42,249 nt of DNA. Origin: a virus. Below, piece by piece: positions 24,782 to 40,020 of this stretch (positions are counted from its first letter, which is position 1; each line of letters starts with the position of its first letter). The notes under the pieces were generated by a model. It searched no databases, had not been told where the DNA came from, and saw nothing but the letters and a program-made list of their open reading frames with translations. The stretch lies in IMG/VR virus record IMGVR_UViG_3300038701_002746, positions 1 through 42,249 of that record; one strand, given 5' to 3'. The translations under genes were made by a program, and so were the position numbers.

Positions 24782-25324
24782 CTATAAATCTTCTAACTCA
24801 ATTATTTCAGGTTGCTGGAATAATTGAGGGGTTTCTTTTACAGTATCAATCCTTTTTGCCTCAGTTTTTAAGGGAGTAGTCTTTATGGATTCAGTAACGT
24901 CCTTCTCATCTTTTGAAATAATGCCTGTATCTATAACTATGGTAACAGGAGCAGACCCATTTCCTGATTTATTTTCATATAAGGACTCAAATGTATTTTG
25001 GAGTTTAAATATAACAGCATTAGCCTTGGCTCGGTCTGCTTTGCCCGTCGCTGTATCATTTAAGACTTTCTCCCAATACCTTAAAGCAAGGCCATACCCC
25101 ACTTTTTTGGCATGGAGCCACTCTTCATGGTCTTTTTCCCATCGCTCCAAAGTTTCAAGTGTGACACCCAGACCCCCTGCTACAGCTTCATATGTGTGCC
25201 CATTTTCCATCATTTCCACTAAAAGACCTCGATATATAGACCGATACTCAGCTTGGCTATCTAGACCAAGTCGCTCCACTTCTCTTTCCATCATGTCTAT
25301 GTCTTCTAAATCAAAACGTCTCAA
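24782..25324 (-). CDS. Terminase small subunit
   Basis: A 180-aa protein with a helix-turn-helix (YEAVAGGLGVTLETLERWEKDH, about 39-60 without the ends) followed by a helical oligomerisation region (GLALRYWEKVLNDTATGKA, then FKLQN), as in small terminases that recognise phage DNA. The start codon is TTG, supported by AAGGAG six bases before it and by overlap with the HNH gene stop. It lies on the opposite strand to its neighbours and about 3 kb from the large terminase gene. The C-terminus is LEDL, matching the shared [D/E]DL tail of the replication proteins. Confidence 0.85.
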   Translation of the reverse strand: MRRFDLEDIDMMEREVERLGLDSQAEYRSIYRGLLVEMMENGHTYEAVAGGLGVTLETLERWEKDHEEWLHAKKVGYGLALRYWEKVLNDTATGKADRAKANAVIFKLQNTFESLYENKSGNGSAPVTIVIDTGIISKDEKDVTESIKTTPLKTEAKRIDTVKETPQLFQQPEIIELEDL

Positions 25325-25672
25325 TCAGAGCTCCTTAAGGACTTTACTGAGTTCCTTCTTTTTATCGTGGCATGGAATACATAAAATAATCAATCCTTCT
25401 GGACTTACTCTCAATCGCTCAATCCAAGTATCCCAGCCCACTTCCTTAATAGAACCACAAGCTATTATATGGTCCACTTCTGGATGGACTGTATTTTTGC
25501 CACACTTTTCGCATTTATACACTTTTTTGGAGACTCGACCAATTTTCTCTTTGTCTCCTGTCTCGGCCCGAAGTAGGGCTTCACTACGTTCTTTTGAATA
25601 CATCCAGACTCGCCTAAGAGCATTTCGCAAGTCTGTATCAGATATTTGCTTTTTAGATGTCTTTTTTCTCAT
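25325..25672 (-). CDS. HNH endonuclease
   Basis: A 115-aa nuclease. A zinc knuckle is formed by C54-x2-C57 and C98-x2-C101. The catalytic core is VDHI (Asp67, His68), with His102 after the last cysteine and Trp80 between. HNH nucleases beside terminases help cut DNA during packaging in many phages. Here it pairs with the small terminase only. No ribosome site precedes the ATG, and a promoter candidate would start RNA nearly at it, so translation may be leaderless. Confidence 0.88.
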   Translation of the reverse strand: MRKKTSKKQISDTDLRNALRRVWMYSKERSEALLRAETGDKEKIGRVSKKVYKCEKCGKNTVHPEVDHIIACGSIKEVGWDTWIERLRVSPEGLIILCIPCHDKKKELSKVLKEL

Positions 25673-25678
25673 AAATTC

Positions 25679-25707
25679 AATAAAGGAGTTTTAACCATGA
25701 CAGTCAA
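25679..25707 (-). promoter_or_regulatory. Candidate promoter for HNH and small terminase
   Basis: On the minus strand TTGACT (25707-25702), 17 bases, TTTATT (25684-25679). The expected RNA start is close to the HNH ATG at 25672. It overlaps the first codons of the divergent HTH regulator gene, so the two genes could regulate each other. Confidence 0.4.
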
Positions 25708-26272
25708 TACCTATCTAGCATCCTATAAGATGACCATTAAAAGATTCTCTCTCAATTGTCAGATACCCCTTTCCATGGCCAAAAAAGCGGCTAAAGGGCA
25801 TTTAGATGACCAAATGATAGCTGATAAGATCTACTCAATGACTGGAGGACTCATCCTCCCCGAAGAAATGTGTTTTGATTTAGAACGAGAAGATGGCTCT
25901 CCAGTGCTTCACTCCCCTGTCAGATCCAGTGAAGGGCAAAATAATGTCTATTTCCTCCCAGCACAATACGATATGACACCAAAAGAAAGAACTGCTTTTC
26001 AACTCTGTCTCTTTACCTTGGATATGAAGACATTAAGGTCAGTCATCACTTTCTTGAGAGTGGATAGGACTTCAATACGAAAAACAGCCTATTCTCTCGA
26101 TGTCAGCATTAGTTCTGTTCAAACTTGGTACAAAGAAGGAGCTACTGAATTCCAAAAAGCTCTTGATAAAGTAACAGCCGAAACACAGCCCATGTTCATA
26201 GAAAGAAAGCCAACAAGAGCCATTCCTGAAGGACCCCAAGAAAATGACAATGACGCGCTAGATGATCTATGA
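25697..26272 (+). CDS. HTH transcription regulator, candidate early switch
   Basis: A 191-aa protein. The frame is open from 25646, but AAAGGAG eight bases before 25697 sets the start at MTVNTYL. The N-terminal 60 residues look like a Cro/CI-type helix-turn-helix (ASYKMTIKRFSLNCQIPLSM, then AKKAAKGH), and a second HTH-like segment lies near 130-150 (RTSIRKTAYSLDVSISSVQT). It diverges from the HNH gene across a few bases. It is the best candidate to bind the 14-bp repeats or the palindrome at 26279. The protein ends ALDDL, one of the shared acidic-leucine tails. Confidence 0.7.
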   Translation: MTVNTYLASYKMTIKRFSLNCQIPLSMAKKAAKGHLDDQMIADKIYSMTGGLILPEEMCFDLEREDGSPVLHSPVRSSEGQNNVYFLPAQYDMTPKERTAFQLCLFTLDMKTLRSVITFLRVDRTSIRKTAYSLDVSISSVQTWYKEGATEFQKALDKVTAETQPMFIERKPTRAIPEGPQENDNDALDDL

Positions 26273-26420
26273 ATTCTCTTGTCAGACAATATTTTATCGG
26301 GCAAAATACCGGACACACCCAAGGGCGATAGCACCTTTACATATAGGAAAGAAAAGATGCGTGTGTGTGGCAGAAAATAAGAGGGCCCCGCTTAACGGAC
26401 TCTGATTTTATGGTGGTTTT
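26273..26420. promoter_or_regulatory. Non-coding gap with palindrome and weak promoter
   Basis: The gap after the regulator gene starts with an 11-bp palindrome TTGTCAGACAA (26279-26289). TTGTCA, 17 bases, CAAAAT (26279-26307) gives a weak sigma70-like promoter overlapping it, so a protein on the palindrome could block it. A GGGCCCC-containing stretch follows near 26383. No convincing ORF is present. Confidence 0.4.
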
Positions 26421-26702
26421 ATGGATATTTCTAATTTTCGGGTGATTTATAATGTGGGATTTAAGAAATTTTCTCTTTATCGGAAGTGTTACTACTTCCA
26501 TGAAGAGCGAAGAACTCTTCTATTGGGACCGAACCCTAGAAAATACTATAGTGATAGGGAACTAGGAGTGCAAGCAAAACCTGTTATTTTTTGCAAAGAA
26601 AAGCATGAAGATTGGCTCTTTCTGCCCCATGAGCATGGGAGGCTGGGTATCTTTCCAGAGCCTGTCGTTTATATGAATTTAGCGCAATGCGCGATAATTT
26701 AG
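26421..26702 (+). CDS. Hypothetical protein
   Basis: A 93-aa basic protein rich in Tyr, Phe, Arg and Lys, with one CREK-like cysteine site only; no motif is recognised. Codon use looks coding, but the ribosome site (GGTGG) is poor. It stands alone between the regulator and the helicase gene. Confidence 0.5.
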   Translation: MDISNFRVIYNVGFKKFSLYRKCYYFHEERRTLLLGPNPRKYYSDRELGVQAKPVIFCKEKHEDWLFLPHEHGRLGIFPEPVVYMNLAQCAII

Positions 26703-26790
26703 GTATTGCATTCCAAAAAAGTTGTAGATATATCAACAACACTTCTTGAATTTAGGAAAACGCTCTTCCTGTCCCCTAGACTAGTTGAGT

Positions 26791-26818
26791 GTTGCCCTAA
26801 GTTCAAGGGGCGGGCAAC
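26791..26818 (+). other. Hairpin in the helicase leader
   Basis: GTTGCCC (26791-26797) pairs with GGGCAAC (26812-26818). An inner CCCT/AGGG pairing can compete with it. No T run follows. Just upstream, near 26719-26738, lies an imperfect palindrome centred on GATATATC. These could influence helicase expression. Confidence 0.4.
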
Positions 26819-26847
26819 GACGATAGCACATTGTAGAGGGGGATTTT

Positions 26848-28413
26848 GTGGCAGAAGAGCCATTTCAGTACACCATTGTCAAAAAACACCTAAAGAAATT
26901 CATAGAAGAGCATATTTCTGTAAAAGACTTCACAATGTCTGGAGCGGGTTGGGTAAAATTTAGAGGCCCCCTCATAACAACTGTCCAAAGATCTCTCAGA
27001 CTCGACACCAAAAATGCCCTAAAAACAAAACTTTTATCAGTATTTAAGGAAAAAGACCTTGAAGCTGAGTTTTTACTTTTTGCCAAAAACCACCCCGACT
27101 ATTTAGAAAACACACTCCCCGAAATGTGGGAGCAGAGAAGAGCAGAGAAAAAAGAAGAGCTCAATATTCCAGAAGATAGGGTTGTTCTTATAGATGTCAC
27201 ACATACAGGAAAAACCAACTATTTATATGATGAAAAACAAGACCTTCTCCACCTTACTGTGGACCCATTCAATCCTGTACTAAAAGAAATGTCCTCAGAG
27301 CTTCAAAAAAAGGGCGTGGAGTTTGTGTTTAAGCCCCTAAAACAGGGACCCCGAGTCTGGGAGCATGAAATTGAGGGCCTCTATTACTTCAATCTCTACT
27401 CCCCTCCAATCTGGCAAAAAGAGCATTTCCCCCCAAACCCCTATAAAGAGCCAAAACTTTTTATTGAATTTATGGAGCAACTCTTTCCCGACAATAAAAG
27501 TAGAGACGGGGTTTATCGGTGGATGTATCGCGCTTTATGGGGAAGAAATCAGACTGCTTTAATGCTTTTTGGGGTAAAAGGAACAGGAAAATCCATACTT
27601 TCTCAAATAATGAAGGCTTTCACGCGCCCAGAATATGCCAACAATGCCCCCGACTCTGTATTTTCGAGCAATTTTAACAGCATTTTAGGGAAATCTCGCA
27701 TTTTGATAGCTGAAGAAGCCATTGTTAGAGGTCAGGGCCACAATAAATTGAAAAATTGGCTCAATGGTGAGGCGAATATCGAAAGAAAGGGTATTGATGC
27801 CGACCGAACGACTCAAATATACCCCAATATTGTCATTACTAGTAATAATCTCCACGATATGTATCTTGAGAGTGATGACAGAAGGTTTTCGGTCCCCGAT
27901 ATTCGGCAAGAGAGGATGGATCTCAAATCCTGGACTCCAAAGAAAATAGAAAAATTCTTAAAAGATTGTCGCCACGATAGCCCCTATATGGCTCATGTGG
28001 CTTCTTATCTCCACGAAAAATACAAAAATGCAGAGGATTTTGAGCAAATAAGGGACACAAGGACATTCAATGATATTGTCACAGCCTCTCTTTCTGAATG
28101 GCGTAGAGCCATTGTGGAGGCCTGTGAAAAGTGTACTGAAAACGAATTGGATCTCACTCGAATGAAGAGAGACTTTAAAGAGGATCGTATTGAGAATTGG
28201 CCAAGAACTTGGACCCCCGTGGAGAGTTTTATATCCTCTTTTGTCTATAAAAATACCTGTTTATTGGGGTTTATAGAGGACAGGGGGAAGCAAAAATTCC
28301 TAGTTTTTAGTAAAGAATTCAAGAAAATCAATAATATAGGGAAATCTACTTCAAAAGTTGAGGAAGAAGAAGTGGAGGACTTTTTAATAGATGACACAAT
28401 GGAGGACTTATGA
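26848..28413 (+). CDS. Superfamily 3 helicase (primase-helicase-like)
   Basis: A 521-aa replicative helicase. Walker A is FGVKGTGKS (Lys248), the acidic Walker B is ILIAEEA (Glu289/Glu290), and motif C is NIVITSNN. This is the SF3/D5-like type related to DUF5906 proteins, not the RecA-type gp4 helicase of T7. No zinc-ribbon/TOPRIM primase motifs are visible in the N-terminal 230 residues, so a primase activity is not shown. The start is GTG with AGAGGGGGA before it. The C-terminus is strongly acidic and ends TMEDL. Its stop overlaps the next gene (ATGA). Confidence 0.88.
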   Translation: MAEEPFQYTIVKKHLKKFIEEHISVKDFTMSGAGWVKFRGPLITTVQRSLRLDTKNALKTKLLSVFKEKDLEAEFLLFAKNHPDYLENTLPEMWEQRRAEKKEELNIPEDRVVLIDVTHTGKTNYLYDEKQDLLHLTVDPFNPVLKEMSSELQKKGVEFVFKPLKQGPRVWEHEIEGLYYFNLYSPPIWQKEHFPPNPYKEPKLFIEFMEQLFPDNKSRDGVYRWMYRALWGRNQTALMLFGVKGTGKSILSQIMKAFTRPEYANNAPDSVFSSNFNSILGKSRILIAEEAIVRGQGHNKLKNWLNGEANIERKGIDADRTTQIYPNIVITSNNLHDMYLESDDRRFSVPDIRQERMDLKSWTPKKIEKFLKDCRHDSPYMAHVASYLHEKYKNAEDFEQIRDTRTFNDIVTASLSEWRRAIVEACEKCTENELDLTRMKRDFKEDRIENWPRTWTPVESFISSFVYKNTCLLGFIEDRGKQKFLVFSKEFKKINNIGKSTSKVEEEEVEDFLIDDTMEDL

Positions 28414-28637
28414 ATAAATTAGGACAAAGAGATAGTATGACCTGGCAGACTTTCCAATCCATGCTTCAAGGTGGGGCGAAAAGGCATACAGACAAAGGCT
28501 ATCAAGATGTCATTTCCGATGCATATAGAGCTACAGACCAATTTATGGCTGAAACTATGGCTGAAAAAGAAAGAAAAGACGCTGAAACGAAGAAAAAGTT
28601 TGAAGAACAGAGAAGCATAGAAGAAGACCTATACTAG
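28410..28637 (+). CDS. Small charged helical protein
   Basis: A 75-aa protein coupled to the helicase gene by an ATGA overlap. The second half is a charged single helix (MAEKERKDAETKKKFEEQRS), and it ends EEDLY, one residue longer than the shared [D/E]DL tail. It may be a helicase partner, but no family is recognised. Confidence 0.7.
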   Translation: MNKLGQRDSMTWQTFQSMLQGGAKRHTDKGYQDVISDAYRATDQFMAETMAEKERKDAETKKKFEEQRSIEEDLY

Positions 28638-28641
28638 TTTC

Positions 28642-28670
28642 TTGACTTAAGTGAAGAGAAATGTTATAAA
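28642..28670 (+). promoter_or_regulatory. Strong internal sigma70 promoter
   Basis: TTGACT (28642-28647), exactly 17 bases, TATAAA (28665-28670): five of six matches in each box with ideal spacing. A 14-bp element (AAAAGTGTAGTAAT) overlaps the -10 and start region, so the same protein that binds the repeats at 22355 may control it. It should drive the small-gene cassette and the replication genes behind it. Confidence 0.75.
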
Positions 28671-28681
28671 AGTGTAGTAAT
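28668..28681 (+). promoter_or_regulatory. Copy of the 14-bp control-region repeat
   Basis: AAAAGTGTAGTAAT differs by one base from the second unit of the tandem array at 22355. It lies across the end of the -10 box and the start site of the promoter at 28642, a classic repressor position. Confidence 0.6.
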
Positions 28682-28695
28682 AATTGGAGTAGATT

Positions 28696-28971
28696 ATGGC
28701 AATGACACATAAAGCAGGGGACTCCTGTCCCTACTGTTTCAGACAAATGACCCAAGAAATAATTGACCTAAAACGAGCAAAAGGTCGCCAAAGCCTAAAA
28801 GAGGCCTTCAAATTGCGGGGGCCTCATTGCCCCTATGCTGGAGTTGACCGACAAATTTGGGAGCTCTCTAGACTAGAAGGCGATTCTGTTTTCGACATTG
28901 CCCTGAAACTCAATGTTCCTGAGAAATACGTCTTGGGGATGACTCAATTGATGGATGAAAGGGGCCACTAA
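28696..28971 (+). CDS. Small zinc-binding-like protein
   Basis: A 91-aa protein. CPYC (Cys11, Cys14) and a later HCPYAG (His44, Cys45) could bind one zinc ion. A helix-turn-helix-like segment (DIALKLNVPEKYVLGMTQLM) follows. It is the first gene behind the strong promoter, with GGAG six bases before the ATG. A DNA-binding or host-takeover role is possible; no family is recognised. Confidence 0.72.
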   Translation: MAMTHKAGDSCPYCFRQMTQEIIDLKRAKGRQSLKEAFKLRGPHCPYAGVDRQIWELSRLEGDSVFDIALKLNVPEKYVLGMTQLMDERGH

Positions 28972-29066
28972 TGTGGGGACCAAGTTTTGATGTAGCTATA
29001 AATTTGATATGGGTTTTTGTTTTTATGCCTGTGGCTTTAAAACTTTTATGGGAGATGGGGAAATGA
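28971..29066 (+). CDS. 31-aa single-span membrane peptide
   Basis: This short ORF begins at a TAATG overlap with the previous stop and ends at an ATGA overlap with the next start. The product (starting MWGPSFDVAINLIWVFVF) is almost one membrane helix with a basic/acidic C-terminus. GGGG-rich bases before the ATG act as ribosome site. The double overlap is strong evidence that it is translated. Such peptides can be holin-like or modulate host membrane proteins. Confidence 0.6.
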   Translation: MWGPSFDVAINLIWVFVFMPVALKLLWEMGK

Positions 29067-29359
29067 AAATTGAAATACCAGAAACCCTAGAGATTCAACG
29101 AGATATCATAAATGAACTCACTGTGGAGTTAGGGGATTTAAGTAAAAGGTATAGCGAGTCTCAAGACACAATTCAAAGCCAATTTAATGAAAATAAAGCT
29201 TTACGAGAATCATTTAGTAGATTTCACAGAGAAATGCGAGACCCTCCTGTAGTTATGACTGAGGATGCAAAAGCTGAGTTCGATAAATTAGTTGAAGGAC
29301 TTCAGGCAATGAGTTTTTGGAGTAAATTAAAGTTTTTATTTTTAAGAGGTGAGTTGTGA
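29063..29359 (+). CDS. Hypothetical coiled-coil protein
   Basis: A 98-aa protein. The frame is open from 29009, but the ATG at 29063 has GGAGATGGGG upstream and overlaps the membrane peptide's stop, so I start there (MKIEIPETLEIQRD). Residues about 10-55 form a coiled coil and the end is basic and hydrophobic (FWSKLKFLFLRGEL), perhaps membrane-contacting. Its stop overlaps the following GTG start. Confidence 0.7.
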   Translation: MKIEIPETLEIQRDIINELTVELGDLSKRYSESQDTIQSQFNENKALRESFSRFHREMRDPPVVMTEDAKAEFDKLVEGLQAMSFWSKLKFLFLRGEL

Positions 29360-29769
29360 GCCTTATTAAAAAATGGAAAACCAAAGAGGGCTATTTTGCT
29401 GTCATTCTTGAGATGGACTCAACATTTCCAAAAAGTTGGCTCAATGGGTATGTGGGGGTGCCCATGACTCATAAGTCGGTCACTCAGAGTCTTTTTATCC
29501 CTAAAGAAAAAACAAGAGAAGAGATCATTGAGGATATTAAAGAGAATGAGTATGACCTCTATAGGCTAAGTCAATATATAGAAGTATACGATGGCCTTTC
29601 TTATGGAAGTCGAAAATTAAGATGTGTTTATGTACCAAATACATTTTGGCATGGCTTTACTTGTAATGAATTTAGAGAAGAGGACTATAAAGATGAAGCC
29701 TTTGTTACAAAAGAATGTGAGAAACTCTCTCGCCAACTTTATGAATTAGATTTAAGGGAGTTTGAATAA
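29356..29769 (+). CDS. Hypothetical protein
   Basis: A 137-aa protein with a GTG start overlapping the previous stop (GTGA) and AGAGGTGA as ribosome site. It has mixed charge, many aromatic residues and an acidic end (LYELDLREFE). No motif is recognised. It belongs to the tightly packed cassette of small accessory genes. Confidence 0.7.
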   Translation: MSLIKKWKTKEGYFAVILEMDSTFPKSWLNGYVGVPMTHKSVTQSLFIPKEKTREEIIEDIKENEYDLYRLSQYIEVYDGLSYGSRKLRCVYVPNTFWHGFTCNEFREEDYKDEAFVTKECEKLSRQLYELDLREFE

Positions 29770-29932
29770 TGAAATTAGAAATAGCAGAAAAATGGGTCAA
29801 AGCCCTGAGAAGTGAAGAGTATAGCCAAACAAAAAGGGCCTAGAGATTAAGAAAAATGAGAAAAGGCTTAAACGTATTAAAGATCTTGAAAAGGAACTTA
29901 AATCTTTAGACAACCCAGAAAGTAGGTCGTGA
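29769..29932 (+). pseudogene. Frameshifted small gene (or programmed -1 frameshift)
   Basis: The first frame (29769-29843) encodes MKLEIAEKWVKALRSEEYSQ and then stops after four more residues. This start matches a common phage family (KWV-x-ALRSG-x-Y-x-Q). A second frame, without its own start codon, continues from about 29833 to 29932 as a basic coiled coil (EIKKNEKRLKRIKDLEKELK) and its TGA abuts the next ATG. A -1 shift at the A-AAA-AGG stretch would join them into about 56 aa. Either a one-base change broke the gene or the ribosome shifts here. Confidence 0.5.
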
Positions 29933-30298
29933 ATGAAAGAACTTGAACGAATCAAAGCGTACATCGAGAAGGCGACTGATGGGCCTTGGGAATACACTTA
30001 TAATGAGCCCTATACACCAAGCCTTGTTTTTAAAATTACTCACGAAAGGCGAGTTCCTGGAGTAGATTTTTTTGAGGACGATGCTCCGGTTAGAGATTAC
30101 AACGCTGAAGCTAAAAAGAACCATGTTTTCATAGCCCAATCCCGAACCGACCTGCCAAAAGTTGTCGAGGCGTTGGAGGGCGTACTTAAATGGCTCGAAG
30201 TTTGTGAACTAGCTTTATCAAATCCAAGTCATATAAGAGAAGCGGCTAAAGATCAAAAAGAGAGAATCCAATCCATCCTAGGAGGCAGTGATGAGTGA
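29933..30298 (+). CDS. Small phage protein of the GPW / RTDLP type
   Basis: A 121-aa protein with signatures of a widespread phage family: AYIEKATDGPW near the start, and FIAQSRTDLPKVVEALEGVL in the second half. The function is unknown. It is related in pattern to the 92-aa protein at 24265. It follows the frameshifted gene directly and overlaps the next gene. Confidence 0.78.
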   Translation: MKELERIKAYIEKATDGPWEYTYNEPYTPSLVFKITHERRVPGVDFFEDDAPVRDYNAEAKKNHVFIAQSRTDLPKVVEALEGVLKWLEVCELALSNPSHIREAAKDQKERIQSILGGSDE

Positions 30299-30695
30299 GC
30301 CGAGAGAAGTATATGCTTTGATTTATGGAGAAAAATCACACTATCAAGACTTATATAATGATAATCTTAAATTTCTACAAAGCATCCAAAGAGAAAAAGA
30401 TGAGTTAGTCACGTTCATCGAGAAGTCTGCTTATGATGAGTTGAAAGAAAAATTTGATAGAGCCTGTCACTTAGCCTTAGAGAGAAAACATAGAGCGCAA
30501 AAGTATAAAGACCAAGCCGACAAGCTGGCCGAGGCTTTAAGGAAAGTTAATTTATTTGCGGAGGCATTGTGGTGGAAAATGACCCCAGAGCAGAGAGAGT
30601 ATTTAACTGACAGAAATTTAAAACATGGACAACAAGCACTAGCCGAGTACCGAGGGGAGGCCGAGAGTGAGAGTAAGATTATTTCGAACTGGTGA
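30291..30695 (+). CDS. Hypothetical coiled-coil protein
   Basis: A 134-aa protein. An in-frame GTG precedes it, but AGGAGG is best spaced for the ATG at 30291. Residues about 20-95 are a charged coiled coil, followed by WWKMTPEQREYL. The end reads EAESESKIISNW: the part EAESE is encoded by the junction repeat GGAGGCCGAGAGTGAG, so this gene seems to run through an older gene boundary. Confidence 0.7.
   Translation: MSEPREVYALIYGEKSHYQDLYNDNLKFLQSIQREKDELVTFIEKSAYDELKEKFDRACHLALERKHRAQKYKDQADKLAEALRKVNLFAEALWWKMTPEQREYLTDRNLKHGQQALAEYRGEAESESKIISNW
30656..30671 (+). repeat. Gene-junction repeat, copy 1
   Basis: GGAGGCCGAGAGTGAG is identical to 30867-30882. It contains the ribosome site and the GTG start of the following gene, and encodes EAESE in the gene before. 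A looser form (GGAG, then GAGAGTGAG) ends the gene before 31645. Confidence 0.8.
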
Positions 30696-31652: not shown

Positions 31653-32109
31653 CGATGAAATACAGAAGTTTACACAAGATATCAGAAGCGGAGCTACAGA
31701 AAAAGAAAGAGTTGTTGTCAATCAGGGACAGGAAGCTCCAAGACAAGCTCAACCCCCAGTTGGAGAAACTGTTAGCCAGGAGACAAAGGGATCATTTAAT
31801 TATAATTGGATTACTATCCCTCTCAGCATTGGCTTTGGCTATTTGCTTTATCTCCTTTTTAATAGCCCTGATCCAAAACTAGAAATTGAGAAGCACAAGA
31901 CAACAATACTCGGCTGGGTCCAAGAGATGGTTGAAAGTGATTTACCACCCGAAGTTAGGCAGTTTTATAAAGCAGAGCTCAAGCCAGGGCAAACTATGAT
32001 TATGTATTGGCAGAGAAATGGCGATGGCCCTACAAGGGAAATCATAGAGTTTAAGCCAGAACACAATGAGGATATTGAGAAGATCCTACAATTAAGGAAG
32101 AAAAATTGA
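31645..32109 (+). CDS. Single-span membrane protein upstream of DNA polymerase
   Basis: A 154-aa protein. Residues 1-54 are polar and Gln/Pro-rich, 55-73 form a membrane helix (WITIPLSIGFGYLLYLLFN), and 74-154 are a charged soluble domain. The start is GTG in a junction motif. Its TGA overlaps the TTG start of the polymerase gene, which argues that this frame is translated. A second ORF, also with a membrane helix, is nested in the +1 frame. Confidence 0.7.
   Translation: MSNDEIQKFTQDIRSGATEKERVVVNQGQEAPRQAQPPVGETVSQETKGSFNYNWITIPLSIGFGYLLYLLFNSPDPKLEIEKHKTTILGWVQEMVESDLPPEVRQFYKAELKPGQTMIMYWQRNGDGPTREIIEFKPEHNEDIEKILQLRKKN
31655..31882 (+). CDS. Possible overprinted 75-aa membrane protein
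   Basis: An ATG-start ORF wholly inside the 31645 gene in another frame. The product has a strongly basic, heptad-like N-terminal half (AELQKKKELLSIRDRKLQDK) and a 27-residue hydrophobic helix (about 47-73, with LIIIGLLSLSALALAICF). The quality of this membrane helix is high for a chance frame. Whether one or both frames are used cannot be decided by reading alone. Confidence 0.4.
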   Translation: MKYRSLHKISEAELQKKKELLSIRDRKLQDKLNPQLEKLLARRQRDHLIIIGLLSLSALALAICFISFLIALIQN

Positions 32110-34154
32110 AGTTTTGCTATATAGATTTTGAGTATAATAAGCCAAGTGATAAAGACCCCAATATGGTTTCTTGCGCTTTAAAACTATCAAATCAAGAAGA
32201 TATTCATAGTTTTTGGCTATTAGATAGTCCTGTTAGTAAGGGAATACTCCATACTCTATTATATAAAATAAAAGATACCCATGTCATTGTCTGCTTCAAC
32301 GCTATAGCTGAAGGTCGTTGTTTTCTTGCGCTTGGCCTGGATGTCAGGGATTTCACTTGGATTGACCTCTACTGTGAGTGGAAGATGCTTACAAACCATT
32401 GCCATAAATTTCAATATGGAAGGCAACTCATTAAGGGGAAAGAAGTTTTCACTAAACCACCTAAAAATAAGTGGGATAGAACAGAAGAAGATAATGAGGC
32501 CATTTCTTCCTCTAAAGCAGAGCACAATTTAGGGTCTGCAGTTTTTAAACTACTTAATAAAAGAATTGATAATGAGAGAAAAAATAGAGTTAGGCACGTT
32601 ATCATTTCGGGGGATTTAGACCTCATAGAAGAACACAGAGATGAAATTATAGAGTATAATGAATCAGATATTGAACATCTCCCCAAACTATTAAATCAAG
32701 TACAAAAAGCCTATAAATTTCTATTTAAGAACAATAGAGAGATCCTTAAGGGGATGAAAAGCGAAATGCTATTTAGAGGTGATTACAGTGCTCGGACTGC
32801 AATCATAGAACGGCTGGGGCAACCAATTGACTACGACAGGCTTAAGAATCTCTCTTCTAATGTTAATAACATTCTTATGGAGTGCCAAAGAGATATCAAC
32901 AAACAATTTCCTGATTTAAAACCTTTTAAATTCAATAAAAGAGAGATGCGGTTTAATTGGAAGCAAAAAGACACTAAAGAATATCTCGAAAAAAACCTCA
33001 CTCGGTCTCAATTAGAGGGTTGGTTGAAGACTGACAGTGGTGCCATGTCTTTGAAATTAGATGCTTTTACTAAGTATTTTGATTTCAAACATGAATACCC
33101 AGAAGGAAATTTTGGAGCACAAATGGTGCGTTTTTTGAAATTGAGACAATCTCTCAATGGATTTAGCCCTGCGTCCAAAAACTCCTTCTGGGATACCGTG
33201 GGGACGGATAAGAGAAGTAGACCATTTCTTAATATATATGGAAGCCAAGCCGGACGAAACCAGCCTAAAGCCACAGGATTTCTATTCTTAAAGCCAGCCT
33301 GGATGAGAAGCCTCATGGTCCCAAGTCCAGGCAATTGTGTTATAGGGATTGACTATGGATCACAAGAATTTCTTTTAGGTGGTCTGCTTTCTGGAGATAG
33401 GGAAATGATTGATGCCTATCATTCGGGAGATCCTTACCTTTATTTTGGCAAAAAATATGAAGCTATTCCTCAAACTGGGACTAAACAATCTCACCCTGTT
33501 GAGCGATATGAGATGAAACAAACAGTGTTATCCATTCAATATAAAATGGGTGCTATAGGATTGGCTAATTCTCTCTCCCAAAAAGGGAATAGAGAGTACA
33601 CTAAAGAAGAAGCTCAAGATTTTATTGATGGTTTCAACTCTATTTTCCATAAATATGCTGAATGGTGTGAAGACATTAGATATACCTATGAAGTCGAAGA
33701 GTTTATAAAACTCCCCTGTGGTTGGGTTATGTTTGGGGACAATGATAATTTTAGATCTATCATGAATATGCCCGTCCAAGGAACAGCTTCAACAATATTA
33801 AGATATGCCATCAGAAATGCTCAGGATAGAAAATTAGCTGTCATCCAATCACTACATGATGCTTTATATACTGAAGCACCTATCAATAATTGGGAATACC
33901 ATGTAGACCAATTATATATAGCTATGGACGAAGCTTTTAGAGAAGTTTTTAAAGATGACGAAAATCTTGATTACGCAAATTGTCGAATGGATGCAGATGT
34001 TTGGTCCCCCGAAATGGAAGAAGGGAAAGGCAAAACCCCCCTGGGCGTGAGCTACAAAATTCAAAAAATGTATGTTGACGAAAGAGCCACAAATGAATTT
34101 GAAAGATTTGGTAAATATTTAAACAAAGATATGAGTGTCTTGGAAGACCTCTAA
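32106..34154 (+). CDS. Family-A DNA polymerase with 3'-5' exonuclease
   Basis: A 682-aa T7-type replicative polymerase (T7: 704). Proofreading: DFE (Asp7, Glu9) and Y-x-x-x-D in YNESD. Polymerase: motif A IDYGSQE (Asp416), motif B R467-x3-K471 with Y479, motif C HDA (His584, Asp585). In motif B the residue equal to E. coli Phe762 or T7 Tyr526 is Leu475, and Lys480 replaces the usual glycine after the tyrosine. The start codon is TTG with AAGGAAG upstream and overlaps the preceding stop. The protein ends VLEDL, a shared tail. It copies the phage genome, probably with the neighbouring SSB. Confidence 0.95.
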   Translation: MKFCYIDFEYNKPSDKDPNMVSCALKLSNQEDIHSFWLLDSPVSKGILHTLLYKIKDTHVIVCFNAIAEGRCFLALGLDVRDFTWIDLYCEWKMLTNHCHKFQYGRQLIKGKEVFTKPPKNKWDRTEEDNEAISSSKAEHNLGSAVFKLLNKRIDNERKNRVRHVIISGDLDLIEEHRDEIIEYNESDIEHLPKLLNQVQKAYKFLFKNNREILKGMKSEMLFRGDYSARTAIIERLGQPIDYDRLKNLSSNVNNILMECQRDINKQFPDLKPFKFNKREMRFNWKQKDTKEYLEKNLTRSQLEGWLKTDSGAMSLKLDAFTKYFDFKHEYPEGNFGAQMVRFLKLRQSLNGFSPASKNSFWDTVGTDKRSRPFLNIYGSQAGRNQPKATGFLFLKPAWMRSLMVPSPGNCVIGIDYGSQEFLLGGLLSGDREMIDAYHSGDPYLYFGKKYEAIPQTGTKQSHPVERYEMKQTVLSIQYKMGAIGLANSLSQKGNREYTKEEAQDFIDGFNSIFHKYAEWCEDIRYTYEVEEFIKLPCGWVMFGDNDNFRSIMNMPVQGTASTILRYAIRNAQDRKLAVIQSLHDALYTEAPINNWEYHVDQLYIAMDEAFREVFKDDENLDYANCRMDADVWSPEMEEGKGKTPLGVSYKIQKMYVDERATNEFERFGKYLNKDMSVLEDL

Positions 34155-34169: not shown

Positions 34170-34607
34170 GTGAGTGTATTTAAAACGAAGAAAAAAATAG
34201 GTGGAGTTGAGTTCTTCAAAAAATGGGATGAGTGGACTGAAGGAGATACTCTTTATGTAAAGTTTAGAGAATTAAAACAAAACAAATTTAAAAAAGACGT
34301 TTTTATCTGTGAGATTGTAAATGTTGATAATATGTCAGACCCCACTTTCACAGCCCCTAAAAATGGAGAGCCGAAAGATATGGAAGTTGGGGATAAAATT
34401 GCCCTTACAGCCAATGGAAATCTAGGCTATTTACTCCATAAAGGGATCGAAGAAGAAGGCAAAGAAGCTATTTTCGCTGTTGCTGTATCAGGAACTACCG
34501 AGCTTCCAGACTCTCATGAATATGCTGGGACTGAAGTTTTTGAGTTCGATGTCCAAGTTGTTGAATATGATGGAGCCGAGGAAGAAGACGATAATGACGA
34601 CCTCTAA
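34170..34607 (+). CDS. Single-stranded DNA-binding protein
   Basis: A 145-aa SSB-like protein: a beta-rich core of about 125 residues with basic and aromatic positions (VEFFKKWDEWTEGDTLYVKF) and a strongly acidic C-terminal tail ending EEEDDNDDL. Such tails in E. coli SSB and T7 gp2.5 dock to replication enzymes. GTG start with AAAAGGAG. It lies between the polymerase and the recombination exonuclease genes, and overlaps the latter. Confidence 0.8.
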   Translation: MSVFKTKKKIGGVEFFKKWDEWTEGDTLYVKFRELKQNKFKKDVFICEIVNVDNMSDPTFTAPKNGEPKDMEVGDKIALTANGNLGYLLHKGIEEEGKEAIFAVAVSGTTELPDSHEYAGTEVFEFDVQVVEYDGAEEEDDNDDL

Positions 34608-35715
34608 AAAGAAATTAAAATCCGTTCGGGATGTGAAGGATAAGAAAGAAGAGAAAGTGGAGCCTATAAAAGACGGGCTCTACTTTGATATGCCTAACAA
34701 GGTTTACCATCATCAATTTGATTTTAAAGATCATTATATCTCTTCTTCTCAAGGAAAGGCATTGATACAAAGTCCCAACTTTTTCTATAGGAAGTATATT
34801 TCTAAAGAACTTCCTGGGGAAGAGATGGGACCACACCTTGATGTTGGCACAGCCCTTCACACTTTAGTTCTCGAGCCACATCTTTGGGATGAAGACATTG
34901 CCATATTTACTGGAGCTAAACGCTACGGGAAAACTTGGGATGAGTTTAAAGAAGAGCACAAGGAAAAGGCTATAATAACTAAGAAAGAAGAAGCTCTTGT
35001 GAGACTTCTTGCTAAGTTTATTAAGCAAAATCCAGCTGCTATGAATTACCTCTCTAAAGAGGGCTGGAATGAGGCTTCACTTTTCATAACACTTTATTCT
35101 GATGGCAAAACTATCTATACAAAAACGAGGACAGATCATTATTCTGCCCTTAATAAAGATGGCTGGGCTGATGGAATTTCTAAAGATGTTGATGAGAGTA
35201 AGCTAATCCCCCTTAAAGTTAAAATGCGGTTTGACCAATTTAGTGAAGATGGGGATTTAATTGATATTAAATCAACATCGGATAACCCTGAAGATAAATG
35301 GGCCATTCAGAATATTGAAAAACGCTATAGTTACTCATTTTCTGCAGCTTGGTATCATGTGATTTTGGACGCTTATATTGGATGGATGTCAGATATAGAT
35401 ATGCCAAGACCTGGCAATTTCTATTGGGTTTACGCATCTAAAACCTACTATAACACTCAAGTCTATCGTTGCTCTCAAAGAGCTATGGCAGCGGGTAGGG
35501 CTAAAGTTATAGAAGCTCTTTTAAGACTCACTGAAGGTATTACTACAAATTGGGAGACCGAAGAAAGTGCAGTACAGGTTTGGGATATTGATGACAAAAC
35601 AGCGAAGTGGCATGGAGTTGAAGGCTTATCAGTAGATGAAAAGCCAGAAATTTACAAGTCTGGACCTGTCGAAGAAAATAATGATTTAGAAGATAACGAT
35701 TTAGATGATTTATAG
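34594..35715 (+). CDS. RecE-like PD-(D/E)XK exonuclease
   Basis: A 373-aa nuclease. The frame is open from 34480, but the ATG at 34594, overlapping the SSB stop, gives a sensible N-terminus (MTTSKKKLKSVRD). The family signature is present: YFDMPNKVYHHQ, SSSQGKAL, GTALHTLVLEP, and the catalytic GDLIDIKST (Asp and Lys), with YSFSAAWYH as the last motif. Such 5'-3' exonucleases work in phage recombination and DNA processing. It ends NDLDDL. A separate annealing protein is not recognised nearby. Confidence 0.85.
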   Translation: MTTSKKKLKSVRDVKDKKEEKVEPIKDGLYFDMPNKVYHHQFDFKDHYISSSQGKALIQSPNFFYRKYISKELPGEEMGPHLDVGTALHTLVLEPHLWDEDIAIFTGAKRYGKTWDEFKEEHKEKAIITKKEEALVRLLAKFIKQNPAAMNYLSKEGWNEASLFITLYSDGKTIYTKTRTDHYSALNKDGWADGISKDVDESKLIPLKVKMRFDQFSEDGDLIDIKSTSDNPEDKWAIQNIEKRYSYSFSAAWYHVILDAYIGWMSDIDMPRPGNFYWVYASKTYYNTQVYRCSQRAMAAGRAKVIEALLRLTEGITTNWETEESAVQVWDIDDKTAKWHGVEGLSVDEKPEIYKSGPVEENNDLEDNDLDDL

Positions 35716-35723
35716 GAGGAAAA

Positions 35724-36284
35724 GTGAAAATCATTGAAATTAAATTAGAGAAAAAAATATCAGGAACTATCAATGGACTAAAAAACGAGTATGATAATGA
35801 ATTAGTATCAGCTGTTGCTATGGTTGAAGAAGGCGAACACGTTGAGAAGGCAATGGCCAATTTGAGATCTTTTGTGGAGAGTTCCCTTGGCATATCAGAG
35901 TCAAAATCTACAATGGTTACAGAGAAGACTGAAGTCTCTGAACCGAAGGAAGATGAAAAGCCAGCATCAAAGAAAAAGGCAAGCCCTAAGAAAGCTACTA
36001 GCAAGAAGAAGACAGCTGCAAAGCCGAAGGCAAAGAAGGCAGTAGCGTATGACAATACTGATGATAATCACAAAGTCATATATTCTGAGTTAGCAGACAA
36101 GCATTTCACTGAGAAGTGGAGAGCTAAGGGCTCTGACTTACGAAAGCAAATTGCTGGAGTATCTAAAGAGTTAGTCGGGGAAGCTATGTTCTCGGGCGAT
36201 GCTGAAGAGTGCACTGTCGAAACTATATTAGAATCATTTGAAGCGAAATTTTTGGAGTTAGCTCCAGAGCCGGATGATCTATAA
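35724..36284 (+). CDS. Lysine-rich, histone H1-like linker protein
   Basis: A 186-aa protein in three parts: a folded N-terminal segment (about 1-58), a lysine/alanine/proline-rich linker (about 78-111, with KKASPKKATSKKKTAAKPKA) like histone H1-type tails, and a C-terminal helical domain (about 118-180). It ends PEPDDL. GTG start with AGGAGG. It probably binds DNA through the linker and may assist the exonuclease or SSB; the exact role is unknown. Confidence 0.75.
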   Translation: MKIIEIKLEKKISGTINGLKNEYDNELVSAVAMVEEGEHVEKAMANLRSFVESSLGISESKSTMVTEKTEVSEPKEDEKPASKKKASPKKATSKKKTAAKPKAKKAVAYDNTDDNHKVIYSELADKHFTEKWRAKGSDLRKQIAGVSKELVGEAMFSGDAEECTVETILESFEAKFLELAPEPDDL

Positions 36285-36315
36285 ATAAAAAAGCCAGCCC
36301 CGAATTAGGCTGGCT
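36283..36315 (-). terminator. Minus-strand terminator inside the plus-strand arm
   Basis: AGCCAGCC (36292-36299) pairs perfectly with GGCTGGCT (36308-36315), loop 8 bases. Read on the minus strand a TTTTTTATTT run follows, so it is an intrinsic terminator for leftward RNA. On the plus strand no T run follows. It would stop antisense transcription coming from the right, away from the replication genes. Confidence 0.65.
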
Positions 36316-36360
36316 AGCACAACACAACAACCAAATGGTTAAATAATGTGGAGTATTTAT

Positions 36361-36705
36361 ATGACGAAAATAATAGCCATATCAATAAGTTTTTTTGCAA
36401 TACTCTCTTTTTCTTTTTCTATGGGCTGGTTCTCTGGCCGTAAGAATTTGGAAGAGAAGTATATGTTTGGGTTTGAGTTTGAACTTTATGACCCAGACAA
36501 TAGGAATGTCTGTATAAACCAAGGTCACAATTATAAAGTAGAGGGTTGGTATTCTGGAAAGAATGGGGATCAACTGGAAGTATGGGTTGAAAGATTTGAA
36601 GGTGCTCCCACGGGGGCTCCGCGCCATAAGTGGCAGACCAGAAGATCTTATAGTTATTTCTTTAATGAAGAAGCCCACACTAAACACTTATTTGGAGACA
36701 AGTAG
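36361..36705 (+). CDS. Small membrane-anchored or exported protein
   Basis: A 114-aa protein. The frame opens at 36346, but TGGAG seven bases before 36361 sets the start at MTKIIAISISFF. Residues 4-24 are a hydrophobic signal or anchor without a clear cleavage site. The rest is a basic/aromatic soluble domain. The stop overlaps the GTG start of the SNF2 helicase. Function unknown. Confidence 0.68.
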   Translation: MTKIIAISISFFAILSFSFSMGWFSGRKNLEEKYMFGFEFELYDPDNRNVCINQGHNYKVEGWYSGKNGDQLEVWVERFEGAPTGAPRHKWQTRRSYSYFFNEEAHTKHLFGDK

Positions 36706-37985
36706 TGTTTGATAAATATCTGAATTGTACATTAGACCCCTACCAAGTTACGGGAGCCAGTCTTGCCTATAGAGAAAAATATTTCTTTATAGGGGATGAT
36801 ATGGGTCTGGGGAAGACAGTGCAAGCCTTAGCAGTAATAGCAAGAGATGGAGGGCGCACCTTATTTGTCACTCCCCCACATCTTCGCACTAACTGGGAGC
36901 AAGAAATCCTTCTCCATATGAAAAATGTGCCGAGCTACCATATTGTTAAGAAAAAGCAGGATATTAATAAGTATAATGGAGAGCACTTCCTTATTATCTC
37001 TAATCAAATGATAGAGAAGATAGACCCCAAAGTGTTAAAGACCTTTGATAATTGTGTTGTGGATGAAGCCCACGCTTTCAAAAATCCCGACTCCCAAAGG
37101 ACTGAAGCATTTGCCCAGTATGTTGAGCAGTGCCGACCTAATCGCCTTCTCATGTTGTCGGGGACAGCTATTAAAAACAGGGTCACTGAGTTTTTCTCCC
37201 TACTCTACATACTATCAATGAATAAAAATGCTTGTGCTTGGAACAGGAAATATTCTGTCAGAAGAGACTTCCCCTCTAAGTGGGATTTTAACAAAAAATT
37301 CTCTCATGAAGTGCAGATAAAAATAAGACGTAGGATGATTACAAAATATGAGGGGTTGAAGAATCTAAAACTTCTCAAGAAATACATGAAACATAGATAT
37401 ATAAGGCGTGATGAAACTCAACAAAATCTCCCTGATTTAATTGAGATGAATCACTTCATTGATGGGTACAAGGATGATCCCTCTCTCCAGACAATTTGGG
37501 AAGCCCTACTCCAGGGAAGACAAAACGACATACTAGCCAAGGTCCGATCTGCATCTGTAAAAGCCAAAGCAACAATAGAATATGTCAAAGGCATCAGTGA
37601 GAATGGCTCCCAAATTGTCGTTTTTACAGACCATAAAGAGTCTGCAGAAACAATTGCCGATGGGCTTAAAGTTCCTTTCATCCACTCTGGAACTTCTATG
37701 AAAGCCAGGGACCAAATCAAAAAAGATTTTATTGCAGGAAATATACAATATTTCGTAGCCACAATAGGCACCATGTCAGAGGGCGTGACATTAATTAATG
37801 CCAATGATGTAGTGTTTAACGACCTTTCCTGGGTGCCAGCTAGTAATAGACAGGCTAAGAAAAGGATTCATAGAAGGGGTCAGACAAAGACTTGTAGAGT
37901 TCATTATGTTTGGGGATCTTATCAGGATAACCAAATAGGTAAATTATTAAGAAGCAAAGAGAGTGTACTAAGGGAGGTACTGTGA
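36705..37985 (+). CDS. SNF2-type (superfamily 2) helicase/ATPase
   Basis: A 426-aa DNA-dependent ATPase. Motif I is DDMGLGKT (Lys37), motif II VVDEAH (Asp120, Glu121), motif III LSGTAI, and motif VI KKRIHRRGQ (387-393), the SNF2 hallmark. It is close to the minimal core without accessory domains. Phage SNF2 helicases remodel protein-DNA complexes or help recombination and replication start. GTG start with GGAG nine bases before it. It overlaps the amidase gene by four bases. Confidence 0.9.
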   Translation: MFDKYLNCTLDPYQVTGASLAYREKYFFIGDDMGLGKTVQALAVIARDGGRTLFVTPPHLRTNWEQEILLHMKNVPSYHIVKKKQDINKYNGEHFLIISNQMIEKIDPKVLKTFDNCVVDEAHAFKNPDSQRTEAFAQYVEQCRPNRLLMLSGTAIKNRVTEFFSLLYILSMNKNACAWNRKYSVRRDFPSKWDFNKKFSHEVQIKIRRRMITKYEGLKNLKLLKKYMKHRYIRRDETQQNLPDLIEMNHFIDGYKDDPSLQTIWEALLQGRQNDILAKVRSASVKAKATIEYVKGISENGSQIVVFTDHKESAETIADGLKVPFIHSGTSMKARDQIKKDFIAGNIQYFVATIGTMSEGVTLINANDVVFNDLSWVPASNRQAKKRIHRRGQTKTCRVHYVWGSYQDNQIGKLLRSKESVLREVL

Positions 37986-38686
37986 AAGAGAAAATAGAAG
38001 AACATTTGCAAAATATAGAGGGGTCTATGGGCGGCATTAGAGAAATATTGATGAGCGAAGAATTTGCTAAGTCTGTTGGAGAAAAAGAAGAAGACACCCC
38101 TGTCTTAAAGAAACCTTTGGGAAGAGTGGCTTTAGTTGTTGGACACACTTACATAAGTAAGGGAGCTTTTTCCCCAATACTTGGTTCTGAGTATGATTAT
38201 AATGCTAAAGTTTTAGGCCCTGCTATCGTTAGAACACTAGATGATTTAGGAATTAAAGGTGGAATTTTCTATAGAGATCAAGGCGGGTATAAAGGGGCCT
38301 ATGATGCGTTAAATTCTTGGGGAGCTGACATAGTTATTGAGCTTCACTTCAATGCCTTTAATGGGAAAGCATCTGGAGCGGAGATACTACTCGCTACTGA
38401 CAAAGATCGTCCTGGTCTTCATGAAAAGGAGCTAGCTATAAACATGGTTGCTATGATTTCTGATGTTTTAAATATCCCAAATAGAGGTTTGAAATATAGG
38501 CCTTCTAGTAAAAGAGAGCGGGGCTGGCATTTAGTGAACCAGACTCACACCATACCGAGCATACTTATTGAGCCTTTCTTTGGGGATAATGAAGATGATG
38601 CTAAAAGCGCCCGTGTAAACATTGTTTCACTAGCAGCTGCTATTGCGCTCCCCTGTAAAACTTTGTTAGAGGGTGGATATGAGTAA
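37982..38686 (+). CDS. N-acetylmuramoyl-L-alanine amidase (endolysin)
   Basis: A 234-aa zinc amidase of the Amidase_3 type. Zinc ligands are His55 (VVGHT), Glu70 (GSEYDYN) and His122 (IELHFNAF); the catalytic acid is Glu197 (ILIEPFF). It cuts between the sugar and the stem peptide of peptidoglycan. A 45-residue charged extension precedes the catalytic domain, and there is no signal peptide, so it needs a holin. As with T7 gp3.5 it is encoded among the replication genes. GTG start. Confidence 0.9.
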   Translation: MKEKIEEHLQNIEGSMGGIREILMSEEFAKSVGEKEEDTPVLKKPLGRVALVVGHTYISKGAFSPILGSEYDYNAKVLGPAIVRTLDDLGIKGGIFYRDQGGYKGAYDALNSWGADIVIELHFNAFNGKASGAEILLATDKDRPGLHEKELAINMVAMISDVLNIPNRGLKYRPSSKRERGWHLVNQTHTIPSILIEPFFGDNEDDAKSARVNIVSLAAAIALPCKTLLEGGYE

Positions 38687-39332
38687 GCGTAAGACAGGGG
38701 GCAAGCGAGGAAGTGTTATAGAGCTATCTAAAAAAAGAAAGACAGCCCCTATAAAGAAAGAAGATTTCACTGTCCCTCGTTTGGTTGATATCACCCAAAA
38801 GACAGAAGATACTTCTATTGTCCACACAACGACAAACATAGAAGAGTCTAAGAAAGCCGTGGAATTTATTCGGAAGGCTTTCCAAAACAAAAACATGGTT
38901 CTATCAGGAGAGACAGAAAGGATGGGCTATGTCGCTGACTTTGCCCACTTTGATTTTATGATAGACCCAAACAACTTAACGAACGATGACATCCTCAGAA
39001 TTAAAGCTGCTAAGAATGATTTAGAAGTTTTAACAGTATTCTGGGGTTTGTTGTGGCCCTATATTGATAAATTGCTAAAGAGCTATGAAGTAATGGAGCA
39101 AGGGTTTGAGCATATCCAAAATGAGAACATTGATGTGGAGAAAAACTATGCCCAGCAATCTCTTATTTTAAGGATATATAAACAGTTTATGGAGAATAAC
39201 AATGACGCAAAATCAAAGTTCAATAGATTCTACAAAGAAGAAAAGAAAAAGTATGACAAGCTCGCCGAGGAAGCTGTCAAAAATTATCATGAGCAACGCA
39301 AATCTGAGCAAGAGAGCCAAGAAAGTAAGTAA
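38679..39332 (+). CDS. Hypothetical protein with basic N-terminus
   Basis: A 217-aa protein. An in-frame GTG lies two codons earlier, but the ATG at 38679 overlaps the amidase stop and has GAGGG upstream. Residues 1-30 are Lys/Arg-rich (MSKRKTGGKRG), the middle is mixed, and residues about 150-217 form a charged helix. The layout suggests nucleic acid contact; no family is recognised. Confidence 0.7.
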   Translation: MSKRKTGGKRGSVIELSKKRKTAPIKKEDFTVPRLVDITQKTEDTSIVHTTTNIEESKKAVEFIRKAFQNKNMVLSGETERMGYVADFAHFDFMIDPNNLTNDDILRIKAAKNDLEVLTVFWGLLWPYIDKLLKSYEVMEQGFEHIQNENIDVEKNYAQQSLILRIYKQFMENNNDAKSKFNRFYKEEKKKYDKLAEEAVKNYHEQRKSEQESQESK

Positions 39333-39579
39333 GTATTTAGTTGCAGAGCTTGGCTTTTCTCCTACCGAAGGACTTGTCTTTGCCCTGAGAGCTGAAGGCT
39401 ATAGTCTTATAGAGACCCAGAGAATGTTGGGGGTTTCTAACGGGGCATCAAAGTCCCACAGTTATAATGGGTTTATCAAATTGAAGAAGATGAATTTCTT
39501 CGATGGAGGGGATGTTAATATTGTACATTTCGTTTATTTAATGGCGGCAAAATTTCCCATAAAGGAGAGTAAAAAATGA
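39289..39579 (+). CDS. Small HTH protein
   Basis: A 97-aa protein from the ATG at 39289 (the frame is open from 39202 and the start is uncertain). It has a basic N-terminus, then GFSPTEGLVFALRAEGYSL and a likely recognition helix in ETQRMLGVSNGASKSHSYNG, similar to sigma-region-4-like or resolvase-like HTHs. It may be a second transcription regulator. It overlaps the genes on both sides. Confidence 0.62.
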   Translation: MSNANLSKRAKKVSKYLVAELGFSPTEGLVFALRAEGYSLIETQRMLGVSNGASKSHSYNGFIKLKKMNFFDGGDVNIVHFVYLMAAKFPIKESKK

Positions 39580-39788
39580 GAAGGGTTGGAGTTATTATAA
39601 AAGATGAAGAAGATGGGCATTTGATCCAATGTGGCTATGAGGCTGAGTCCGAAGGCTTTGATTCTGATAGTATAGTATTTAAGAAACAAGAAGTTGAATT
39701 GAGAATATCGGGGAAAGACTTTACTAATATGCTCCTTATATTTCAGGGCAAGAAGCCAATTATAGAAGAGAAAAATAATGATGTATAA
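39576..39788 (+). CDS. Small acidic protein
   Basis: A 70-aa protein with AAAGGAG eight bases before an ATG that overlaps the previous stop (ATGA). It has mixed beta-like sequence and an acidic end (EEKNNDV). No family recognised. Confidence 0.65.
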   Translation: MRRVGVIIKDEEDGHLIQCGYEAESEGFDSDSIVFKKQEVELRISGKDFTNMLLIFQGKKPIIEEKNNDV

Positions 39789-40020
39789 ATTTAAAGAGAA
39801 AGTGAGGGTAAACCCTCGCTTTTTCGATGCTAGTTTTTATGGGGTTATTGAGGACACTGTTAAGCATACGGGAGAGACTCGTACTTACTATGTTCGCATC
39901 TACCAAGAGCCCGAAGAAGAAGACATGGAGCCTCAATTCATGAAGGCCATGTGGCTTAGTGAACACTCCATATTTAAACTTGATGGGGATAGGTTCGATA
40001 AAGATTTAGATGATCTTTAA
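39778..40020 (+). CDS. Small protein ending in DLDDL
   Basis: An 80-aa (or 79-aa, from the second ATG) protein, the last of the rightward arm. It has a basic first half with a beta-rich pattern and an acidic loop (PEEEDMEP). The tail KDLDDL is one of the shared [D/E]DL ends. Its last 15 bases overlap the end of the leftward metallopeptidase gene on the other strand. Confidence 0.68.
   Translation: MMYKFKEKVRVNPRFFDASFYGVIEDTVKHTGETRTYYVRIYQEPEEEDMEPQFMKAMWLSEHSIFKLDGDRFDKDLDDL

Follow-up and report, generated by a model that had tools for sequence, protein, structure and literature searches.

A shared, phage-specific C-terminal tail on unrelated replication, recombination and packaging proteins and its co-occurrence with the phage gene H1

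Introduction

Short C-terminal peptides that dock replication proteins on their partners are known from several systems: the acidic tip of the E. coli SSB (SSB-Ct, DDDIPF), with its terminal hydrophobic residue, is a docking peptide, and the acidic C-terminal tails of the T7 proteins gp2.5 and gp4 bind the T7 polymerase. Strand displacement by the T7 DNA polymerase requires the C-terminal Phe of gp2.5, according to a title cited in PMC9917605. In phage T4, the polymerase gp43 and the proteins gp55 and gp33 carry highly similar, interchangeable C-terminal motifs that bind the gp45 clamp (PMC2988020); the beta clamp is bound through the motif Q-phi-x-[LM]-[FL] (PMC11139829); and the C-terminal domain of lambda Redbeta, which is small and helical, binds both lambda exonuclease and SSB (PMC8303780). 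Here, we analyse the record of an uncultured virus (IMG/VR record IMGVR_UViG_3300038701_002746, 42,249 bases, hereafter “the window”), in which eight proteins, among them the DNA polymerase, the primase-helicase, an SSB-like protein, the recombination exonuclease and the small terminase subunit, end in the same acidic-hydrophobic tail, [DE]DL, together with the gene H1, which lies next to the exonuclease gene.

The tail is conserved in relatives of the window phage, it is particular to each phage, it occurs on at least five unrelated protein families, and it co-occurs with H1. Judged from these sequence patterns, the tail is very probably a docking peptide, and the C-terminal domain of H1 is marginally favoured as its receptor; taken jointly, a transferable docking peptide with H1 as its most likely receptor hub is the reading that we find, on balance, somewhat probable.

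The number and variety of tailed proteins exceed those of the T4 case. As in T4, several phage replication proteins have similar hydrophobic-acidic C-termini, but T4 has three described clients and a ring-clamp hub, whereas here there are at least five conserved putative clients and additional ones, including the SSB, the exonuclease and the small terminase; gp45 is a clamp, whereas fold search gives no sign that H1 is clamp-like, and among the scanned rightward-arm proteins of the window no sliding-clamp family was detected. In T7, too, replication is coordinated by acidic C-terminal tails whose terminal hydrophobic residue is critical, but there two proteins are involved, the end is Phe and the polymerase is the receptor, whereas here the polymerase is itself tailed. 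In the case of SSB-Ct, one protein shows its tip to many receptors, whereas here many proteins show the tail. H1 resembles Redbeta in its helical C-terminal domain and in the location of its gene beside an exonuclease gene, but it has no sequence or fold match to Redbeta, and we know of no shared tail on the polymerase, helicase or terminase of lambda. In the open-access literature, only the T4 and the Redbeta/SSB precedents for a shared tail on phage replication proteins were found; the statement of the original prediction, an earlier reading of the window, that no described phage system uses one tail on so many proteins goes too far, given T4 gp43, gp55 and gp33 (PMC2988020).

Results and discussion

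The shared tail of the window phage

Among the 56 proteins of the window, translated from mechanically called open reading frames (ORFs), eight end in [DE]DL (Table 1). The reading of a C-terminus is unaffected by the choice of start codon, and all eight ends listed in the original prediction are found in the translations, as is the end EEDLY of a ninth candidate; none of the proteins encoded in the leftward virion arm has a [DE]DL end, as was claimed. The number of such ends that is expected from composition or from the internal tripeptide frequency is 0.04-0.09 (binomial probabilities of 2e-16 to 3e-14), and 20,000 rounds of shuffling the final 20 residues of every one of the 56 proteins gave a mean of 0.13 and a maximum of 4. 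The likeness had been ascribed to the proteins, not to copied DNA, and the codons agree: the Leu codons (TTA, CTA, CTC and CTT) and the stop codons (TAG, TGA and TAA) differ between the genes, and the tail is therefore not a DNA repeat.

Conservation and concerted spelling in related phages

A DNA-level search of cultured phages with the window gave no match, and single-protein scans with the polymerase and the SNF2 helicase gave no relatives; these were recovered by a terminase scan and by alignment-based scans. The relatives are metagenomic contigs, many of them partial, and their polymerase, primase-helicase, SSB, exonuclease, small terminase, H1 and SNF2 helicase were assigned by profile searches. 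The terminase scan retrieved a contig of 37,928 bases (G001), whose terminase is 57% and whose polymerase is 48-50% identical to that of the window; its tails are LEDLL on both the polymerase and the exonuclease, LDGLL on the primase-helicase, EMDL on the SSB and LDDLL on the small terminase, and an additional protein of 87 residues ends in LDELL. From the window to this relative, DL is respelled as (D/E)xLL in nearly all tails. Scans with polymerase alignments brought in about 90 loci of phages, as well as a single contig from a metagenome-assembled genome (MAG) of Flavobacteriaceae; this contig (L163, CAKZOO010000163.1) is a tailed, H1-bearing phage, and its place in a MAG so labelled is a possible hint at the host or a binning error. 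The nearest named phage is the Silvanigrella phage CP017838, with a polymerase that is 31-35% identical and cut off at the end of the record; none of its ORFs carries the tail. In this record (L001, CP017838.1), a block of about eight genes occurs twice (at about 21.1-25.3 kb and 30.3-34.4 kb) with identical ends, probably as an artefact of assembly or deposition.

In about 37 related phages, the polymerase, the primase-helicase, the SSB, the PD-(D/E)XK exonuclease and the small terminase are extended by an acidic tail whose last residue is hydrophobic, and the spelling of this tail (DL, DLL, DLF, DI or MEF) is particular to each phage. Across unrelated families, the ends read ILDLL/EEDIL/EEEDL/DSELL/EDDLL in L108, ETDLF/DEDDF/ETDLF in L100, NEDEI/DELDI/FTDI/ADDI in L118, EWELL/EDDLL/EEMGL/EEDLL/EEDLL in L163 and QEEF/EMGF/MDF/FGF in L145; the consensus of 112 non-SSB tails is [DE]-x-D-L-L. 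When proteins were exchanged among phages inside each family, the within-phage similarity of the last four residues (BLOSUM mean of 6.05) was not reached in any of 2000 shuffles (2.71 +/- 0.33), and the last two residues were identical in 61 of 129 within-phage pairs, compared to a mean of 27 and a maximum of 42 in 1000 shuffles. Several small proteins also end in the tail of their own phage and are candidate lineage-specific clients: two in L108 (7361-7669, GDEDLL; 7843-8058, EGEDLL) and one each in L163 (9126-9362, EEEDLL), L114 (7465-7662, DDSDLL) and L151 (1441-1770, DDEDLL).

The tails could, alternatively, be general acidic extensions that keep the proteins soluble, add charge or guard against C-terminal proteases, resembling each other through amino-acid bias. 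Most tails are acidic, and the SSB is acidic-ended in some tail-less phages too, but we regard this explanation as very improbable: the within-phage signal lies in the last 3-5 residues and is absent 12 and 20 residues upstream of the C-terminus, the tail is phage-specific and tied to H1, and such ends are rare elsewhere in the same phages. An end of D followed by one or two hydrophobic residues occurs in 84 of 144 proteins of the five families in the 36 H1-bearing loci, compared to 24 of the 622 other ORFs; in the H1-less loci, the counts are 8/126 and 8/569, respectively. The original prediction had offered a docking tag on one hub or protease protection. Docking is strongly favoured, since the tail is conserved in homologues, varies in concert in each phage and is acquired or kept by non-homologous replacements (see below), while protease protection is disfavoured, because it leaves unexplained the phage-specific spelling, the restriction to replication, recombination and packaging proteins, and the fact that the tail strictly accompanies one gene.

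The receptor might also be a protein of the host, i.e. the beta sliding clamp or a reader of the SSB tip, with H1 being just another gene of the same module. The ends DLF and DLL look like the final three positions of the beta-clamp motif (PMC11139829) and like the acidic SSB tip, and similar tails are common to phages whose hosts are not identified. Against this, the Gln of the clamp motif at position -5 is found in 0/149 tails, as is either clamp pattern (0/149) and the SSB tip [DE][ILF]PF (0/149); furthermore, tails differ from phage to phage, and two sister phages differ in the tail together with H1. We therefore consider host docking unlikely.

Gain, loss and replacement

The polymerase tail consists of 7-14 residues past the conserved KY[FLM] with which the domain ends, while the tail-less polymerases among the aligned relatives end at KY[FLM] or at most 6 residues later; in tail-less phages, the exonuclease and mostly the helicase are also without a tail. 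Homologues in relatives do not lack the tail at random: they retain it in concert and lose it largely in concert. On a polymerase tree that was built without the last 12 residues, the tailed phages form one large group, one small group and isolated cases among the tail-less ones, with six changes for the tail and six for H1. In the sister phages L117 (tail-less) and L124 (tailed), with support of 100/99, H1 differs alongside the tail.

In the clade of L095, L106, L110, L118 and L145, neither the exonuclease nor the SSB is related to its counterpart in the window; they are of the DUF2800 (PF10926, 3e-95) and the Enc34 type (PF10991, 1e-38), respectively. Most of these replacements bear the tail of their own phage (EDFTDI and GADDI in L118, EDMDF and NNFGF in L145), and the small gene that follows the polymerase ends in EDMEF in L145 and in DDMEF in L110; the exceptions are the L106 exonuclease (FTNID) and the L110 SSB (GFSFT). 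The recurrence of one phage-specific end on non-homologous proteins argues strongly that the tail itself is functional.

Among the tail-less phages, the SSB ends in the style of DDLE or NDLE in L094, L117, L121, L130, L147, L149 and others, and in D-D-I-x-L in the group of L136, L137, L140 and L148; the polymerase and the exonuclease are bare in both. In the cultured Jerseyvirus Salmonella phage vB_SenS_SP8 (L177), the primase/helicase (8858-11044) ends in TEGDLE and the DUF2800 exonuclease (11965-13206) in TEEDLE, and two proteins may share a tail there as well.

Co-occurrence of the tail with H1

No gene family in the loci distinguishes tailed from tail-less phages better than H1 (p=2e-10, uncorrected for relatedness). 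Automatic tail calls by regular expression were unreliable on several loci, and a refined polymerase rule was used for the final counts. By this rule, each of the 36 loci on the tree that have H1 is also tailed; for three polymerases from H1-less loci, the rule found no anchor. The tailed L128, a locus at a contig end that at first appeared to lack H1, has it at the other end of the contig and makes a 37th case, and the H1-less L123, which had been flagged as tailed since the anchor matched ‘EYK’, ends by eye in KYF-NNEV and is tail-less. Among 28 whole tail-less records, none has H1 (0/28). Independent pairs on the tree that differ all agree on tail and H1, and none oppose. The record of L128 (G060) holds H1 whole at bases 51-578 and its start again at 41020-41091, and is seemingly terminally redundant or circular. 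No match to H1 was found in cultured phages (tblastn with three H1 proteins) or in plasmids (with a fourth).

The H1 gene directly follows the exonuclease gene in the window and in many relatives, and directly precedes it in the DUF2800 clade. The AlphaFold2 model of H1, from an alignment of 30 members, comprises an N-terminal hairpin and helix (approximately residues 4-54), a low-confidence basic linker that is rich in Lys, Ala and Glu, and a C-terminal domain (approximately residues 107-180) that is predicted to be helical with high confidence. The earlier name ‘H1-like’ fits the Lys-rich linker and nothing beyond it. Against the PDB, the model has no match at E<=0.001 and no clamp among the matches listed, and a sliding-clamp hub thus received no support from structure prediction and fold search; as regards the three-helix bundle of the Redbeta C-terminal domain and lambda Orf, the C-terminal domain of H1 is predicted to be helical, with neither a fold match nor a sequence match to PDB chains of that kind.

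The N-terminal domain of H1 is common to the two groups of phages (hhalign 98.7%), while four phages of the clade with the replaced exonuclease and SSB (L095, L106, L110 and L118) have another C-terminal domain. The swapped domain matches the C-terminal domain of a small protein encoded beside DUF2800 in the cultured phages BU2-1, Stiles and phiCDKH02 (hhalign 95.4%); in these phages of Bacteroides, Corynebacterium and C. difficile, respectively, this linker protein accompanies the DUF2800 exonuclease and the Enc34-type SSB, but it has another N-terminal region, and their polymerases are untailed. The C-terminal domain of H1 has therefore changed along with the exonuclease, the SSB and the spelling of the tail, a respelling that extends to the homologous polymerase and helicase.

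Instead of on H1, the tails could dock on another phage protein, for instance the SNF2 helicase or, as in T7, the polymerase, or on several partners, with H1 as a client or an accessory. By analogy, T7 offers the precedent of a polymerase that receives acidic tails, and H1 is itself tailed in the window and in about eight relatives. This alternative nevertheless appears quite unlikely, since every locus, tailed or not, has the polymerase, and most loci of both kinds have the SNF2 helicase (30/31 tailed and 17/24 tail-less), whereas H1 tracks the tail; moreover, the polymerase is itself tailed.

Several observations weigh against H1 as the receptor hub. The tail and H1 are phylogenetically clustered, and the 4-5 independent pairs on the polymerase tree are too few for significance. 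The domain swap is one event, which could track the type of exonuclease and not the tail. The roughly nine phages in which H1 carries the tail could indicate a client or a linked module and not a receptor. The H1 model has no confident fold match in the PDB or among viral models, so that no known peptide-binding fold speaks for this role. Finally, 17 tailed phages have at least one family member that deviates from the strict motif, although several of these still end in a hydrophobic residue.

The original prediction had left the hub unnamed; the co-occurrence profile points to the phage protein H1 and not to a host SSB partner. In the reading that we favour, a short disordered C-terminal tail, [DE]-x-D-L-L-COOH or a phage variant of it, would mark the proteins that act on replicating DNA, i.e. 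the polymerase, the primase-helicase, the SSB, the recombination exonuclease, the small terminase and lineage-specific small proteins. H1, made beside the exonuclease, would oligomerise or bind DNA through its N-terminal domain, hold DNA through its basic linker and clasp the tails with its helical C-terminal domain, and the enzymes of replication, recombination and packaging would thereby be gathered on the same DNA, in a manner similar to that of the T4 clamp with its clients and of the Redbeta C-terminal domain with lambda exonuclease and SSB. More tentatively, H1 may be a phage-encoded, non-clamp scaffold, whose C-terminal domain reads a lineage-particular “address code” peptide and recruits even newly acquired, unrelated enzymes.

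Tailed genes of the window and their neighbours

Table 1. Carriers of the C-terminal tail in the window, with H1 and the adjoining helicase.
Product	Coordinates	Strand	C-terminus	Assignment and remarks
Small terminase subunit	24782..25324	-	...IIELEDL	phrog_309 (E=4e-9); homologue in relative G001 (L053:17818-18408) ends ...ENLDDLL
Unannotated protein (‘HTH regulator’ of the original prediction)	25646..26272	+	...NDALDDL	lineage-specific carrier
SF3-type primase-helicase (DUF5906)	26848..28413	+	...DDTMEDL	PF19263 (1e-12), phrog_1156 (3.5e-20); in relative G001 ends ...EDELDGLL
75-residue protein	28410..28637	+	...SIEEDLY	possible ninth carrier
Family-A DNA polymerase	32106..34154	+	...SVLEDL	PF00476 (1.8e-16); tail past the conserved KY[FLM] domain end
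SSB-like protein	34170..34607	+	...EEDDNDDL	predicted OB-like fold
PD-(D/E)XK (exonuclease VIII/RecE-like) nuclease	34480..35715	+	...LEDNDLDDL	PF12684 (1e-11), phrog_412 (3e-38); start probably downstream of the mechanically called TTG
H1 protein	35724..36284	+	...EPEPDDL	candidate hub
SNF2-type helicase, adjoins H1	36705..37985	+	...LREVL (untailed)	PF00176, phrog_62 (1e-72)
80-residue protein, last rightward gene	39778..40020	+	...DKDLDDL	lineage-specific carrier

The names that had been given to the small terminase, the primase-helicase, the family-A polymerase and the PD-(D/E)XK exonuclease are backed by family matches, while for the ‘HTH regulator’ and for the last plus-strand gene neither a family match nor a relative among the approximately 90 loci was found; the membership of these two proteins is based on the tail alone. 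The SSB-like protein has no family match either, but its AlphaFold2 model (pLDDT of 88) shows a beta barrel-like arrangement with a helix, and its matches among PDB folds are mostly of the SSB type, albeit weak (best E of 0.03). No relative of the 75-residue protein was found among the same loci; ends in -DLY and -DLF are present in other tailed phages, for example DEDLY on the SSB of L119. An N-acetylmuramoyl-L-alanine amidase (Amidase_3, 1.5e-16) is encoded at 37982-38686, in the rightward early arm and not in the virion arm.

Conclusions

Sequence alone shows that, in dozens of phage lineages, at least five unrelated enzyme families share and maintain a short C-terminal peptide and respell it in concert, and that this peptide tracks one gene of unassigned function, H1. 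If the docking of the tails on H1 is true, it would explain how replication, recombination and packaging are coupled in these phages, it would yield a ready-made set of orthogonal peptide-receptor pairs, and it would supply a rule for function, by which a phage protein that ends in the tail of its own phage is a probable client. If the address-code reading is also true, these phages would possess a modular, orthogonal system of replisome assembly. The way in which a replisome stays compatible through swaps of whole components for unrelated ones also becomes a testable question.

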